Made by a program: the position numbers and the translations under genes. This document shows, piece after piece, positions 20,803 through 24,981 of a DNA stretch of 33,186 nt. This stretch comes from a virus. The notes below the pieces were generated by a model. It worked only from the letters and a program-made list of their open reading frames with translations, did not search any database and was not told the origin of the DNA. The DNA lies in the IMG/VR virus record IMGVR_UViG_3300037502_001820, positions 1 through 33,186 of that record; one strand, given 5' to 3'. Numbering within the stretch: position 1 is the stretch's first letter; each line of letters begins with the position of its first letter.

Positions 20803-22227
20803 TTATGCTCCTAGTGCCGCGTTACAGTATTCGCAAATCTTGTTCGTTTTCTTATTGGGCATCTGACAACTGCCGCAAATTGTAGCGAGGTTCTGTAATC
20901 CCGTAAGAGATACTGAACCATCTTTCAGTTCGGTAAGTGCCCACACTAGTGCGTCTAGTCTATCAGGTGATTCGGCGCTTTCAGGTGTCCACATTACCAT
21001 TTGGTCCTCTAGTTGCGGAAACGCGCCAACATGATGAACGCGATACTGCTCGTAGAGTGCCGAAATGGGTTCTGCGCGCACACGCTTTCCGCGTGTCGCA
21101 TGAACTTTAGTAACAGGTGCATTTCTATCTACCTGTTGAAGCACCATAATAACCATGTCACCGCCGTTGTTTGTTTCAGCAACGATTCGGTCTGCCTTGT
21201 GTTTTCTAAATGCTTCAATTGCTCGCTTGCCCCATTCGTTTGGAGTAGCGCGTATAGTGTCATCAGAGAGGACATAGAAATGTCCGTCTGATGCTGCTCC
21301 TGCTGTGATAATTCCTGTTTCATCGCTATCTTCTCCGCTCGTTACTGCTGGGTCAATAGCAACTACGATGCGGTATAGCGGTGGTACTTTGTCGGGCGTG
21401 ACGCGAGTATCTTCTATCCAATAGCGCTGCCATAGTGCGCCTTCTGCCTGTTCCAGCAGTTCGCCGTATAACTCTTGCCTTCCTGTGCGCGTACCTTCGT
21501 AGCGCGCCTTCAGTTCCGCTAGCGCGGTTTCAGACAAATTCCTTGCGTTATCAAATGTGCTTCCGCGAGTGACAACTACTGAGCCGTCAGTACGCGATAC
21601 CCAGTCACGAAGTAACTTGATGGGCTTTGGCGTTGTTGTTGCCACGATGCGTGGTCTTTCGCCAATACGCAGCGCAGGTGCTAAACCTTCTGTCCAAGTT
21701 TCATACGGATAAGGCCAAGCAGCAACTTCATCAAGCCACGCGCCTGATAAGTTCAGACCGCGACCGCTATCGGGCGAATCCGCACCGAACATGTGAACTA
21801 TCTGTCCGTCTTTGAAAGTAATCTTGTATGACGATTTGTTATAGACATAATCAACATCAGGCACTAGCCCACGATTTCGTATTGAAACCAGCAGTCCTGA
21901 TGGACCTTCAACGCAGACTGTTTTCGTATCACTGAAACGCGGTGCGATAATTGCCCATTGCGTACCCGTGCCGTCAGGTGCTTTTGGCGTTGTCAATATG
22001 CGTTCCGTGAGCCACTCTGCGCCTGTGCGTGTCTTGCCCCAACCGCGACCCGACATAATCAACCAGATATTCCAGTCGCCTTCGGGTTCGTGTTGTTCGG
22101 GTCTGCCGATAAACCACCAAGGCTTGCGGTGTAGGCTGTGAATGTACTCGCTAGTTTGTTGGTTCAGCCATCGCTGTTGTTCCGCTATCGGTAACTGCGA
22201 TATCTGTTCCCTGAGTGATAGACCCAT
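20803..22227 (-). CDS. Terminase large subunit with C-terminal zinc ribbon
   Basis: 474 residues. ATPase domain: Walker A GRGWGKT at 60-66 and Walker B AWLDEVA with D166 and E167, followed by ATTTPKP as the coupling motif. Nuclease domain: VVAIDPAVTSGEDSDETGI, IVAETNNGGDMV and SPDRLDALVWALTEL supply the acidic residues of an RNase H-like fold. This motor packages DNA through the portal. The last 25 residues contain four cysteines (C451, C454, C465, C468) in two CxxC pairs, an added zinc ribbon that is not usual for the family. The start overlaps the small subunit gene by 77 bases. Confidence 0.93.
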   Translation of the reverse strand: MGLSLREQISQLPIAEQQRWLNQQTSEYIHSLHRKPWWFIGRPEQHEPEGDWNIWLIMSGRGWGKTRTGAEWLTERILTTPKAPDGTGTQWAIIAPRFSDTKTVCVEGPSGLLVSIRNRGLVPDVDYVYNKSSYKITFKDGQIVHMFGADSPDSGRGLNLSGAWLDEVAAWPYPYETWTEGLAPALRIGERPRIVATTTPKPIKLLRDWVSRTDGSVVVTRGSTFDNARNLSETALAELKARYEGTRTGRQELYGELLEQAEGALWQRYWIEDTRVTPDKVPPLYRIVVAIDPAVTSGEDSDETGIITAGAASDGHFYVLSDDTIRATPNEWGKRAIEAFRKHKADRIVAETNNGGDMVIMVLQQVDRNAPVTKVHATRGKRVRAEPISALYEQYRVHHVGAFPQLEDQMVMWTPESAESPDRLDALVWALTELKDGSVSLTGLQNLATICGSCQMPNKKTNKICEYCNAALGA

Positions 22228-22645
22228 TTACGCTGCCTTCGTTAATGAACTCGAGAATTGCCTTCTTTGCTTCCTCTATGTCTATTTGAATCGGTGTGCC
22301 ATTCGGACCTGAAATCTCTGCGCGGATTTTGTCGTTCCTTCCCCAGCGTTCTGCGTGCTTTCTTTCAAGCCACCACGCTGCCGCTTGCCATCTGCCGTTT
22401 TGTGCTGCTTGTTGAATACGCACAACCGCATCAGCCTCAGCAGCAGCAAGAGCGCGCAAGACTGACTCCCGAAATTCCCGATAGTCTTTCTTCGCGTTAG
22501 GTTCTTGCGCTAACTCCATCCAGCGATAGAAAGTTGTTTCGCCTATTCCTGCTAGTTCAGCAGCAACTTTTTGGTCGTTTCCTGCTCGTAACGCACGGAT
22601 AAGTTTTTCCAGCGTTTCCGGTGTTAGTTTGCTCGGTCTAGACAT
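22151..22645 (-). CDS. Terminase small subunit
   Basis: 164 residues, directly before the large subunit. The N-terminus carries a helix-turn-helix (LRAGNDQKVAAELAGIGETTFYRW without the first five residues). A helical region follows (LRALAAAEADAVVRIQQAAQ) and then GRWQAAAWWLERKHAERWGR, typical of actinophage small terminases that recognise the packaging site. The C-terminus is low complexity and overlaps the large subunit reading frame. The start overlaps the upstream glycosyltransferase stop. Confidence 0.85.
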   Translation of the reverse strand: MSRPSKLTPETLEKLIRALRAGNDQKVAAELAGIGETTFYRWMELAQEPNAKKDYREFRESVLRALAAAEADAVVRIQQAAQNGRWQAAAWWLERKHAERWGRNDKIRAEISGPNGTPIQIDIEEAKKAILEFINEGSVNGSITQGTDIAVTDSGTTAMAEPTN

Positions 22646-23435
22646 CTACTCTTGGCAATTTCTCGAAGGTAATTGGTTTCAAGCGGATATTTTTGATTCC
22701 GCCAGCCTTCGTTACAACTTTGCATAGTTCAGGATAGTGCGCTTCCATTTCGTACAGTACCCGTGTGTGGTCTGTCTGCCTATCGGCTACTCCGCGTGTT
22801 TTGAGTTCTGCGTCAATACCGCCAGCAGCAAAATACTTGGTAGTAGGACAGAGATATTCGAAACGCACGACAGAGCCATTCTGAATGAACGAGCGAATCG
22901 TGCTTTCGTAGTCATCGCCTGATGCTTCTATGATTCTGTCTTTACCGATAAACACAGGGTCGCCAGCGTAGCAGCCGTAGAAAAGTCCGATGATATAGCG
23001 CAGCCCTACGGAGATATGGTCGTGAAGGAAAAAACCATTCTCAACAGGGTTGATTCCCCACATTGTTGCGCCGACCTGTTTTGCCGTCTTGAAACCAAGT
23101 TCAACGAGTGCGTCTAGGTCGCCTTGCCAGTCCTCTAATTTCCCATCTGCCGTACGCTGCCGAAGGCGGACAACATCATCGTCCATGTTCAGTAGCGGTG
23201 TGCCTTTGGGATAGTAGTGATGATAAAACTGTTGTTGTTGGATTTTTCCCAAAACACCTGTGACTACGCGGTATTTATGCCCTAGCACATACCGATAGTG
23301 GTCGCTTTCTTCTTCTCCTGCCACGAATATCGTGATGCGGTCAGGGTCTACTTTCTTGCTCTCTAGCCATACGAGAGTCTTATCGCGCAATAATTCGGCG
23401 CGCTTGTACGAAGGTATTGCTATTTGGTAATCCAT
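22638..23435 (-). CDS. Putative DNA-base glycosyltransferase (TET-associated type)
   Basis: 265 residues. It starts with a GT-A-type first strand and loop (YQIAIPSYKRAELLRDKTL) and has a NMDDDVVRL motif with D85-D87, the expected metal/nucleotide-sugar site. Other segments are ITIFVAGEEESDHYRYVLG and the C-terminal YEMEAHYPELCKVV. The pattern resembles the glycosyltransferases found beside TET/JBP oxygenases in phages. It lies immediately downstream of such an oxygenase, so it probably transfers a sugar to a hydroxylated base in phage DNA. Substrate and sugar are unknown. Alternative: a glycosyltransferase acting on a virion or cell-wall target. Confidence 0.75.
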   Translation of the reverse strand: MDYQIAIPSYKRAELLRDKTLVWLESKKVDPDRITIFVAGEEESDHYRYVLGHKYRVVTGVLGKIQQQQFYHHYYPKGTPLLNMDDDVVRLRQRTADGKLEDWQGDLDALVELGFKTAKQVGATMWGINPVENGFFLHDHISVGLRYIIGLFYGCYAGDPVFIGKDRIIEASGDDYESTIRSFIQNGSVVRFEYLCPTTKYFAAGGIDAELKTRGVADRQTDHTRVLYEMEAHYPELCKVVTKAGGIKNIRLKPITFEKLPRVDV

Positions 23436-23451
23436 CGCCTTCCTTCCGTTA

Positions 23452-24318
23452 TCAACCGCCGAGTATGCGCGGTTTCGTTTCGCCTTTCAGGGCGGAAGCG
23501 AATGCGAGTTCTCGCTCGGTTCTGCGTTTGCGTGCTTCGGCTTGTTCGACTGCGTAAGTGAAACAGTCTTTCATACCGCGTAAGCAGTAGTACACGACAG
23601 TATAACGATAGGCGTCTTTCGTGATGTGTTGAATAGGTGTTACGCCGTGAAGTAGTCGGAATCCCGGAAAGAACAACACCCAACCATCGCGGCATTCAAT
23701 AACAGCGTTATATTCAGGAATGCTGAGATAACCACCGCGAGTGCCACGCCGAACAACAGGCATAGCAGACCACATATCAAAATTATTGCCGTCATAATGA
23801 TACGGAAGCGTGGAAGTTTTATTGACAACACCGCTAGTCCAGAGAGAGCGCTCCGAAATGCGCCACTCATCAGCGACCGCCGATGTTTCTTTTGCGTCTT
23901 TTTCATAAATTTCGGGCGCGATTTCGCGCATGATATCGCTCAAAATATCAGCAGTCTGCACTAATACATCGTGTTCTTCGGGTTGTTCGTGCGACATTGA
24001 AGTAGGACGGCAAGCCTCGCGTGTTTGAAATGGTTTGCGTGGTGCCATACCGAAAGTACGACTGTTGTTCTGTACACCTGTGCTGCGTGTTACGCCTGTC
24101 GCGCTGTATTTGATTCCGCGTACTGCGTTACGAAGATTTGCAGTCACCTCTGCGTCCATCTTCAAATAAACAAGGAATGGCTCGCCTGTTGTTTCATCAA
24201 CATAGATGCCTTCTTCAGTAATGTTGGCTTCAATTTCAGGAACAAGTAATCCCTTCATTTCACGCACATCATCACGAGTGATAACTTGCTTGACGGGAAA
24301 TACTGTTAGTTCTCTCAT
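23452..24318 (-). CDS. TET/JBP-family 2-oxoglutarate/Fe(II) dioxygenase
   Basis: 288 residues. A complete double-stranded beta-helix motif set is visible: H174-x-D176 in LPYHYDGNNF, H224 in FPGFRLLHGVTPI, and R238 in DAYRYTVVYYCL for 2-oxoglutarate. The segment SRTFGMAPRKPFQTREAC and the glycine-rich GTRGGYLSIPEYNAVIEC fit the TET/JBP branch rather than AlkB. These enzymes hydroxylate the methyl group of 5-methylcytosine or thymine in DNA. Neighbours are a ParB-like gene upstream (overlapping ATGA) and a glycosyltransferase downstream, then terminase. No DNA methyltransferase is in the window, so a thymine target or an enzyme encoded elsewhere must be considered. Confidence 0.8.
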   Translation of the reverse strand: MRELTVFPVKQVITRDDVREMKGLLVPEIEANITEEGIYVDETTGEPFLVYLKMDAEVTANLRNAVRGIKYSATGVTRSTGVQNNSRTFGMAPRKPFQTREACRPTSMSHEQPEEHDVLVQTADILSDIMREIAPEIYEKDAKETSAVADEWRISERSLWTSGVVNKTSTLPYHYDGNNFDMWSAMPVVRRGTRGGYLSIPEYNAVIECRDGWVLFFPGFRLLHGVTPIQHITKDAYRYTVVYYCLRGMKDCFTYAVEQAEARKRRTERELAFASALKGETKPRILGG

Positions 24319-24953
24319 TGTGTAGGCACCTCAGAGTTGGATAGTTCGGCAATCATGCGCAAAATAGTTTCTGCATTGCTTTCTGTTCCGAAGCGTTCGC
24401 GCAACTCTGTAAGTTTTTCCATCGCCCAAATATATTGATGCTGTGGGAACTCACACATGAGCAGACGAATAGTTCTTTCTGCATAGCGTTGTGCGCGTTC
24501 TTCGAGTGTTGTTGTTGCCAACACATTTTCGTGTGCTGGTGCAGCAGCAACACCAAACTCAGGTGCTTGTTGTTCGTCTAATATCGCGAGCAAATCATCG
24601 ATATCTGCTGGTTGATAGCCTGTTCCTTCTAGCGAAATATCTTCGAGTAAATCTAATAATGCTTGTTCGTCATAAGTGCCGAGGTCAGCAAGACGATTAT
24701 CAGCAGCAACAATTTTCTTTGCGCCTTCGTCATCAACATCTATTTCAACGATATTGATTTCTGTCCAACCTAAAGATTGTGCGGCTTTCCATAAATGATT
24801 GCCTGCAAGAATTTGTTTCGTATCTTTGCGAACAACGATAGGTTTATATTGTCCATTCGCGCTCAATGATTCGGCGAGTGCTTTGACATTTCCTTTACGA
24901 GGATTGCCTTCAAACTCTTTCAAAGTATCGATTGATACCGATTTTGTTTCCAT
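24315..24953 (-). CDS. ParB-like nuclease domain protein
   Basis: 212 residues. The N-terminal 95 match the ParB/sulfiredoxin-like fold: FEGNPRKGNVKALAESLSAN, YKPIVVRKDTKQILAGNHLW and AADNRLADLGTYDEQAL. In place of the common GxxR the motif reads GNHLWKAA, as in many phage versions. The C-terminal half is helical without a clear DNA-binding motif. ParB-like proteins accompany TET/JBP and glycosyltransferase genes in phages, where they may act as nucleases, nucleotide-binding factors or DNA-modification accessories. The start has a strong GGGAGG ribosome site. First gene after the 24982-25010 hairpin. Confidence 0.82.
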   Translation of the reverse strand: METKSVSIDTLKEFEGNPRKGNVKALAESLSANGQYKPIVVRKDTKQILAGNHLWKAAQSLGWTEINIVEIDVDDEGAKKIVAADNRLADLGTYDEQALLDLLEDISLEGTGYQPADIDDLLAILDEQQAPEFGVAAAPAHENVLATTTLEERAQRYAERTIRLLMCEFPQHQYIWAMEKLTELRERFGTESNAETILRMIAELSNSEVPTQ

Positions 24954-24981
24954 AATTTCCTCCCATTACAGAAGAAATCTG

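Follow-up and report, generated by a model that had tools for sequence, protein, structure and literature searches.

Which base of its own DNA does a phage alter when it carries an oxygenase of the TET/JBP type and a glycosyltransferase (GT) directly ahead of its terminase genes, and which sugar does it attach? The question is raised by the IMG/VR virus record IMGVR_UViG_3300037502_001820, a fragment of a genome analyzed here over its full 33,186 bases (the window); genes described as absent from the window are absent from these 33 kb. On its minus strand, a ParB-like gene, a TET/JBP-type dioxygenase gene and a GT-A glycosyltransferase gene lead into the packaging genes. Comparison with related loci leans clearly toward thymine as the most likely target, and we consider it probable that the operon modifies DNA after replication, with the TET protein making 5-hydroxymethyluracil (5hmU) from thymine, the GT adding a sugar and the ParB-like protein helping.

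The features of the locus are as follows.
24315–24953, minus strand: ParB-like gene (ParB_N), 212 amino acids, the conserved first gene of the cassette
23452–24318, minus strand: TET/JBP-type 2-oxoglutarate/Fe(II) dioxygenase, 288 amino acids, with H174-x-D176, H224 and R238
22638–23435, minus strand: GT-A glycosyltransferase, 265 amino acids, with a DDD motif at residues 85–87
22151–22645, minus strand: terminase small subunit (TerS), matching phrog_4102 (7e-34)
20803–22227, minus strand: terminase large subunit (TerL), matching PF03237 (2.1e-20) and PF17289 (1.9e-17), the end of the conserved cassette-to-packaging arrangement
24921–24966, minus strand: ParB start and upstream edge, the site where the sister contigs L007 and L008 hold ∼1 kb extra

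The ParB, TET and glycosyltransferase genes

The genes of the operon are tightly packed. ParB and TET overlap by 4 nucleotides (nt; 24315–24318), the 16-nt gap between TET and GT contains a purine-rich Shine-Dalgarno-like stretch, and the GT gene overlaps that of TerS by 8 nt (22638–22645), with TerL following downstream. These coordinates bear out an earlier reading of the locus made from the sequence alone (the sequence-only reading), which had described three overlapping or nearly touching genes running into terminase and had proposed a DNA base hypermodification cassette. Families, fold, operon structure and comparative data make hypermodification by far the best reading, and each of the three proteins has a near full-length family match in PHROGs. 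Cassettes of this kind are already known, from a Pfam family of TET-associated glycosyltransferases and from annotated actinophages. That of the window is a real, well-supported member, and its target base is now better supported than in the sequence-only reading.

By both profile and predicted fold, the oxygenase belongs to TET/JBP. It matches Tet_JBP (PF12851) at 4.9e-11 with 42.6 bits, the curated cut-off being 34.9, and the full HxD...H...R set recognized earlier (H174, D176, H224 and R238) is there in full, each residue being unchanged across 33 diverse aligned TETs. A fold placement outside TET/JBP had been named as a refutation in the sequence-only reading, but a search of the PDB with the AlphaFold model of the protein (predicted local distance difference test, pLDDT, 82; predicted template modeling score, pTM, 0.80) returned only TET or CMD1 structures among its first 26 matches (CcTet, NgTET1, CMD1, human TET2; E 1.6e-13 to 4e-10), with FTO, AlkB/ALKBH and small-molecule hydroxylases ranking far lower. 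The cassette very probably oxidizes a pyrimidine in the phage's own DNA, presumably at its 5-methyl group. A related TET is found in ∼100 phage records, mostly of actinophages and at best 46–47% identical, under annotations as varied as queuine tRNA-ribosyltransferase, thymidine hydroxylase and Tet-like J-binding protein. The queuine label, which is also attached to the PHROG family of the window TET and to several GenBank records, is at odds with the fold and seems to be a misannotation.

To place the cassette, 80 IMG/VR loci, further loci and named phages were compared, giving 90 distinct TETs of the window's clade. A ParB gene lies within 4 kb of the TET in 87 of these 90, indicating that the pairing is not due to chance. 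The ParB-like protein of the window matches PF02195 (ParB_N; 1.9e-9, 37.8 bits, above the curated cut-off of 26.3) and phrog_723 (4.9e-45), and it is also similar to phage DNA methyltransferases of phrog_498 (1.9e-29) over their N-terminal part. We propose that it is a DNA-targeting or recruiting factor.

The third protein matches phrog_25200 (4.9e-26) and, at 6e-5, phrog_842, the family of beta-glucosyl-HMC-alpha-glucosyltransferases. Its structure model (pLDDT 91.8) folds as a GT-A protein; the best PDB matches are nucleotide-sugar transferases and nucleotidyltransferases, and the search also returned protein and polysaccharide transferases. The motif reads M-D85-D86-D87, of which D86 and D87 do not vary among 18 aligned GTs; model, fold matches and conservation thus uphold the GT-A start and DDD motif seen before. 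The protein is presumed to transfer a sugar to the hydroxymethylated base.

Thymine or 5-methylcytosine as target base

The sequence-only reading had left the choice between thymine and 5-methylcytosine (5mC) open. Neighbor statistics and the partners found between TET and terminase now lean to thymine. Only 2 of the 90 TETs of the window's clade have a C5-methyltransferase gene within 4 kb, versus 53 of 58 TETs of a separate, Melnitz-type clade; among the 50 whole records in the set, 5 encode such an enzyme. The window encodes none, in agreement with the earlier statement that it lacks a DNA methyltransferase. Extending the search to the sister record G001 (39.9 kb) revealed neither a C5-methyltransferase nor a thymidylate synthase, and no C5-methyltransferase was found in six named phage records or in an actinobacterial metagenome-assembled genome whose bin holds a TET relative (53%) together with an amino acid:DNA transferase (ADDT), a pyridoxal phosphate (PLP) enzyme and a kinase. 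The dinucleotide composition of the window (CpG ratio 1.15, TpG/CpA ratio 1.14) gave no usable signal on the target base.

A thymidylate-synthase homologue, which could supply 5hmU before replication, is encoded in only one of the 38 records in the TET set, that of phage Cr30, whose TET is only distantly related; the other 37 lack it. We therefore rejected the pre-replicative route, and the TET protein would be the obvious source of 5hmU.

What lies between TET and TerL varies among the relatives. The interval holds GT-A proteins, two unassigned, GT-B-looking families, or an ADDT (PF18724) accompanied by a P-loop kinase (PF18751) and by either a flavin adenine dinucleotide (FAD) oxidoreductase or a PLP enzyme. 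GT-type and ADDT/kinase-type genes are nearly exclusive (GT only 30, ADDT/kinase only 33, both 1, neither 9; Fisher p=1.9e-11), also after thinning to <80% identity (p=8.8e-4) and when GT-A genes alone are counted (p=8e-5). The GT-B label of the c9 and c5 slot proteins was given by eye only, a profile search of the PDB having returned no match for them, and the exclusivity stands without these proteins. On the TET tree the slot switched at least 8 times, compared to 18–30 times in shuffles, indicating that it changed repeatedly but not freely. With the ParB-TET core kept, the relatives thus appear to have exchanged sugar for amino-acid chemistry, or the reverse, in the last step of the cassette.

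The ADDT-type partners resemble those of a 5hmU pathway. ADDT and a PALP enzyme are common to the clade relatives and Pseudomonas phage M6, and the clade's P-loop kinase aligns with an M6 protein that matches the 5-hydroxymethyldeoxyuridine (5hmdU) DNA kinase family (hhalign E 2.5e-7, 143 columns). In M6, ViI and phi W-14, modified thymidines are thought to be built from 5hmdU via a 5hmdU DNA kinase (PMC6449724). If TETs of one clade feed both the kinase/ADDT set and the GT, their common product is, by this analogy, best read as 5hmU. The M6 protein in question, gp054 (L280:11686-12249), is annotated as a terminase small subunit despite its kinase match, and phrog_800, labelled 5-hmdU DNA kinase, matches the clade's kinase as well.

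Residues of the base pocket differ between clades. Three residues after the aspartate of HxD (the equivalent of N179), all 90 TETs of the window's clade have Asn, and each of the 55 TETs scored in the clade linked to a C5-methyltransferase has Asp. We take this to be the position of TET2 N1387, and since human TET2 has Asn too, the split is only suggestive. At the position of the cytosine-contacting histidine, presumably H297 of NgTet1 and H1904 of TET2, the window clade has Leu.

From gene content and these associations we infer the following route. The ParB-like protein would bind DNA and help to choose or present sites; the TET would hydroxylate the thymine methyl group in replicated phage DNA to 5hmU, as JBP does; and the GT-A protein would use a nucleotide-sugar donor to glycosylate the hydroxyl of 5hmU, generating a phage analogue of base J. 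Modification would probably precede packaging of the DNA by terminase, and the modified virion DNA may be shielded from host nucleases.

Several observations weigh against thymine and against sugar transfer to DNA. Human TET2 and NgTet1 bind 5mC. The base-pocket residues, considered as proof of the target, are suggestive only: other phage clades also lack the histidine and carry Asp or Arg in its place. The slot of the window holds a GT, without ADDT or kinase between TET and terminase; the relatives with ADDT/kinase, on which the thymine argument rests, have TETs only ∼45–58% identical to that of the window, and all nearer relatives (TET 65–77%) carry GT-type genes. The part of the genome outside the window could hold further genes. 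Finally, the match of the GT to the TET-associated glycosyltransferase family TAGT (PF20691; 2.4e-5) covers the N-terminal half only and, at 24.8 bits, lies below the curated cut-off of 27.5, so that we call the protein a TAGT-like GT-A and do not count it as a member of that family.

These points feed three alternatives. The TET could oxidize 5mC produced by the host, or by a phage methyltransferase whose gene lies outside the window, and the GT could glycosylate the resulting 5-hydroxymethylcytosine. Solved TET homologues do act on 5mC, TET and C5-methyltransferase pair in the Melnitz-type clade, the window is a fragment, and TET2 shares the Asn at the N179 position; the scarcity of C5-methyltransferases around the clade's TETs, in its whole records and in the sister, named-phage and actinobacterial genomes, together with the 5hmU-pathway families in the slot, lowers this explanation to one we keep as a rival but think rather unlikely. 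That the TET modifies DNA and the GT decorates a virion protein or a host surface glycan would fit the sub-threshold TAGT match and the generic nature of GT-A folds, whose matches here include protein and polysaccharide transferases. However, the GT gene lies in an operon of overlapping genes and fills the slot, flanked by TET and terminase, that the DNA-acting ADDT and kinase take in relatives. The protein also resembles the phrog_842 DNA glucosyltransferases, and the ParB-TET-GT order recurs in Indlovu and, interrupted by a small gene after ParB, in Lilmac1015, which makes a non-DNA acceptor improbable. An oxygenase acting on RNA, nucleotides or small molecules, unrelated to DNA modification, has the queuine label in its favor; with Pfam and fold search both leading to TET/JBP and partner genes that are DNA-modification families, we regard it as very improbable.

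If thymine is indeed the target, phages of the clade oxidize it directly in DNA and so arrive at a nucleotide resembling base J, a common ParB-TET core feeds alternative end products, and the cassettes provide a ready enzyme set for writing modified thymines into DNA. The question of the substrate is within reach of mass spectrometry on relatives that are already in culture.

Sugar donor and diversity of the glycosyltransferases

A lead to the sugar, a point on which the sequence-only reading was likewise open, comes from the sister contigs. L007 and L008 encode a TET 99% identical to that of the window, and the record of L007, G001, is 97–98% identical to the window around the cassette. Directly upstream of ParB, both carry ∼1 kb extra that encodes a 311-amino-acid protein (L007:6420-7355) matching human UDP-glucuronate decarboxylase (UDP-xylose synthase) at 1.6e-116. 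This gene is missing from the window and was found only in L007 and L008 among 35 records searched; the window also lacks a nucleotide-sugar epimerase. Window and sister do not have the same ParB start, a difference that recombination at the cassette edge would be expected to leave. The presence of the gene directly upstream of ParB suggests a pentose, xylose, as a lead for the lineage rather than a result.

In the actinophages Indlovu and Lilmac1015, a PIG-L deacetylase gene follows the GT, which suggests N-acetylglucosamine instead, and the sugar thus probably differs between lineages. None of the IMG/VR contigs searched contained a PIG-L deacetylase gene, so that this offers no route to the sugar of the window. 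Tentatively, one may picture phage DNA with pentosylated (xylosyl) 5hmU, a base J of bacterial viruses made after replication at ParB-selected thymines, with sugar and amino-acid ends swapped on the ParB-TET core; as a whole, we consider this picture possible but doubtful.

Among the GT-A proteins, the one most similar to that of the window is encoded in L027 (63%), where two GTs lie side by side, and the next is that of L054 (54%), whereas the GTs of phages with more similar TETs are only 43–48% identical, indicating that GTs too have been exchanged between phages. In L027 the TET gene is followed by two different GT-A genes in tandem (L027:8867-10464); the first type is that of the window and the other is widespread among the nearest phages, without regard to their order here, and the two enzymes could add two sugars or act as alternatives. 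An FkbM-type methyltransferase gene follows the GT in L015, L016, L017, L018 and L022 and the TET in HTVC112P (L164), where it may possibly methylate the sugar or a hydroxyl.

Relation to known systems and further observations

The actinophages Acadian and Indlovu (Mycobacterium) and Lilmac1015 (Arthrobacter) carry ParB-like, TET/JBP and GT-A genes in the same order as the window, with TETs 40–43% and GTs 28–33% identical to those of the window. The order is ParB, TET, GT, PIG-L (glucosaminyl) deacetylase, kinase and terminase in Indlovu, and ParB, small gene, TET, GT and PIG-L deacetylase in Lilmac1015; in contrast, the GT-terminase junction of the window has neither deacetylase nor kinase. 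Rhodococcus phage Tonitrus and Gordonia phage Wooper combine ParB and TET (∼47%) with ADDT and kinase in place of the GT. Tonitrus has been described as carrying a thymidine hypermodification system (PMC11955845).

The window would share with M6, ViI and phi W-14 the modification of thymine via 5hmU. In these phages, as in the Tonitrus/Wooper type, the hydroxymethyl group is phosphorylated and replaced by an amino acid or amine, whereas the window has a sugar transferase in the slot; of the M6-type set of 5hmdU source, 5hmdU DNA kinase and ADDT, it has neither kinase nor ADDT between TET and terminase, and these two are present in relatives only. Moreover, M6 encodes a thymidylate-synthase homologue, while the TET of the window would oxidize thymine after replication.

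A parallel for the proposed chemistry is the base J pathway of trypanosomatids (JBP1/2 and JGT). JBP hydroxylates thymine in trypanosomes, and a separate transferase then adds the sugar. Both enzyme types, a TET/JBP-type oxygenase and a GT-A protein that would act on DNA, are encoded in the window; in contrast to base J, the proposed system is phage-encoded and has a ParB partner.

Methylophilales phage Melnitz and its marine relatives also encode a TET/JBP dioxygenase, but theirs adjoins an HhaI-like methyltransferase and has Asp three residues after the HxD aspartate. The window has Asn there and, like its sister record, no C5-methyltransferase of such a 5mC-type system. RB69 and Shewanella phage Thanatos have pentosylated cytosine, the donor enzyme of Thanatos being a UDP-xylose pyrophosphorylase (PMC12838424, PMC6024577). 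The candidate pentose and phage-encoded donor genes, here the UDP-xylose synthase of the sisters, are the likeness; the base there is cytosine.

As called, the TerS and TerL reading frames overlap by 77 nt (22151–22227), and several relatives, L010 and L012 among them, have an overlap of about that length. Positions 1–2537 of the window, a tail-fibre region, have no counterpart in G001, and the two records are permuted differently, indicating that the full genome is longer than either.

TET/JBP queries also matched two proteins with an HxD motif that are annotated as putative SNF2 DNA repair proteins, one from Caulobacter phage Cr30 (L005:737-2065) and one from Synechococcus phage S-CBWM1 (L003:3717-5153). 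In each phage a homologue of the window GT is encoded nearby; that of Cr30 adjoins an ADDT gene, in a genome that also encodes the thymidylate-synthase homologue.

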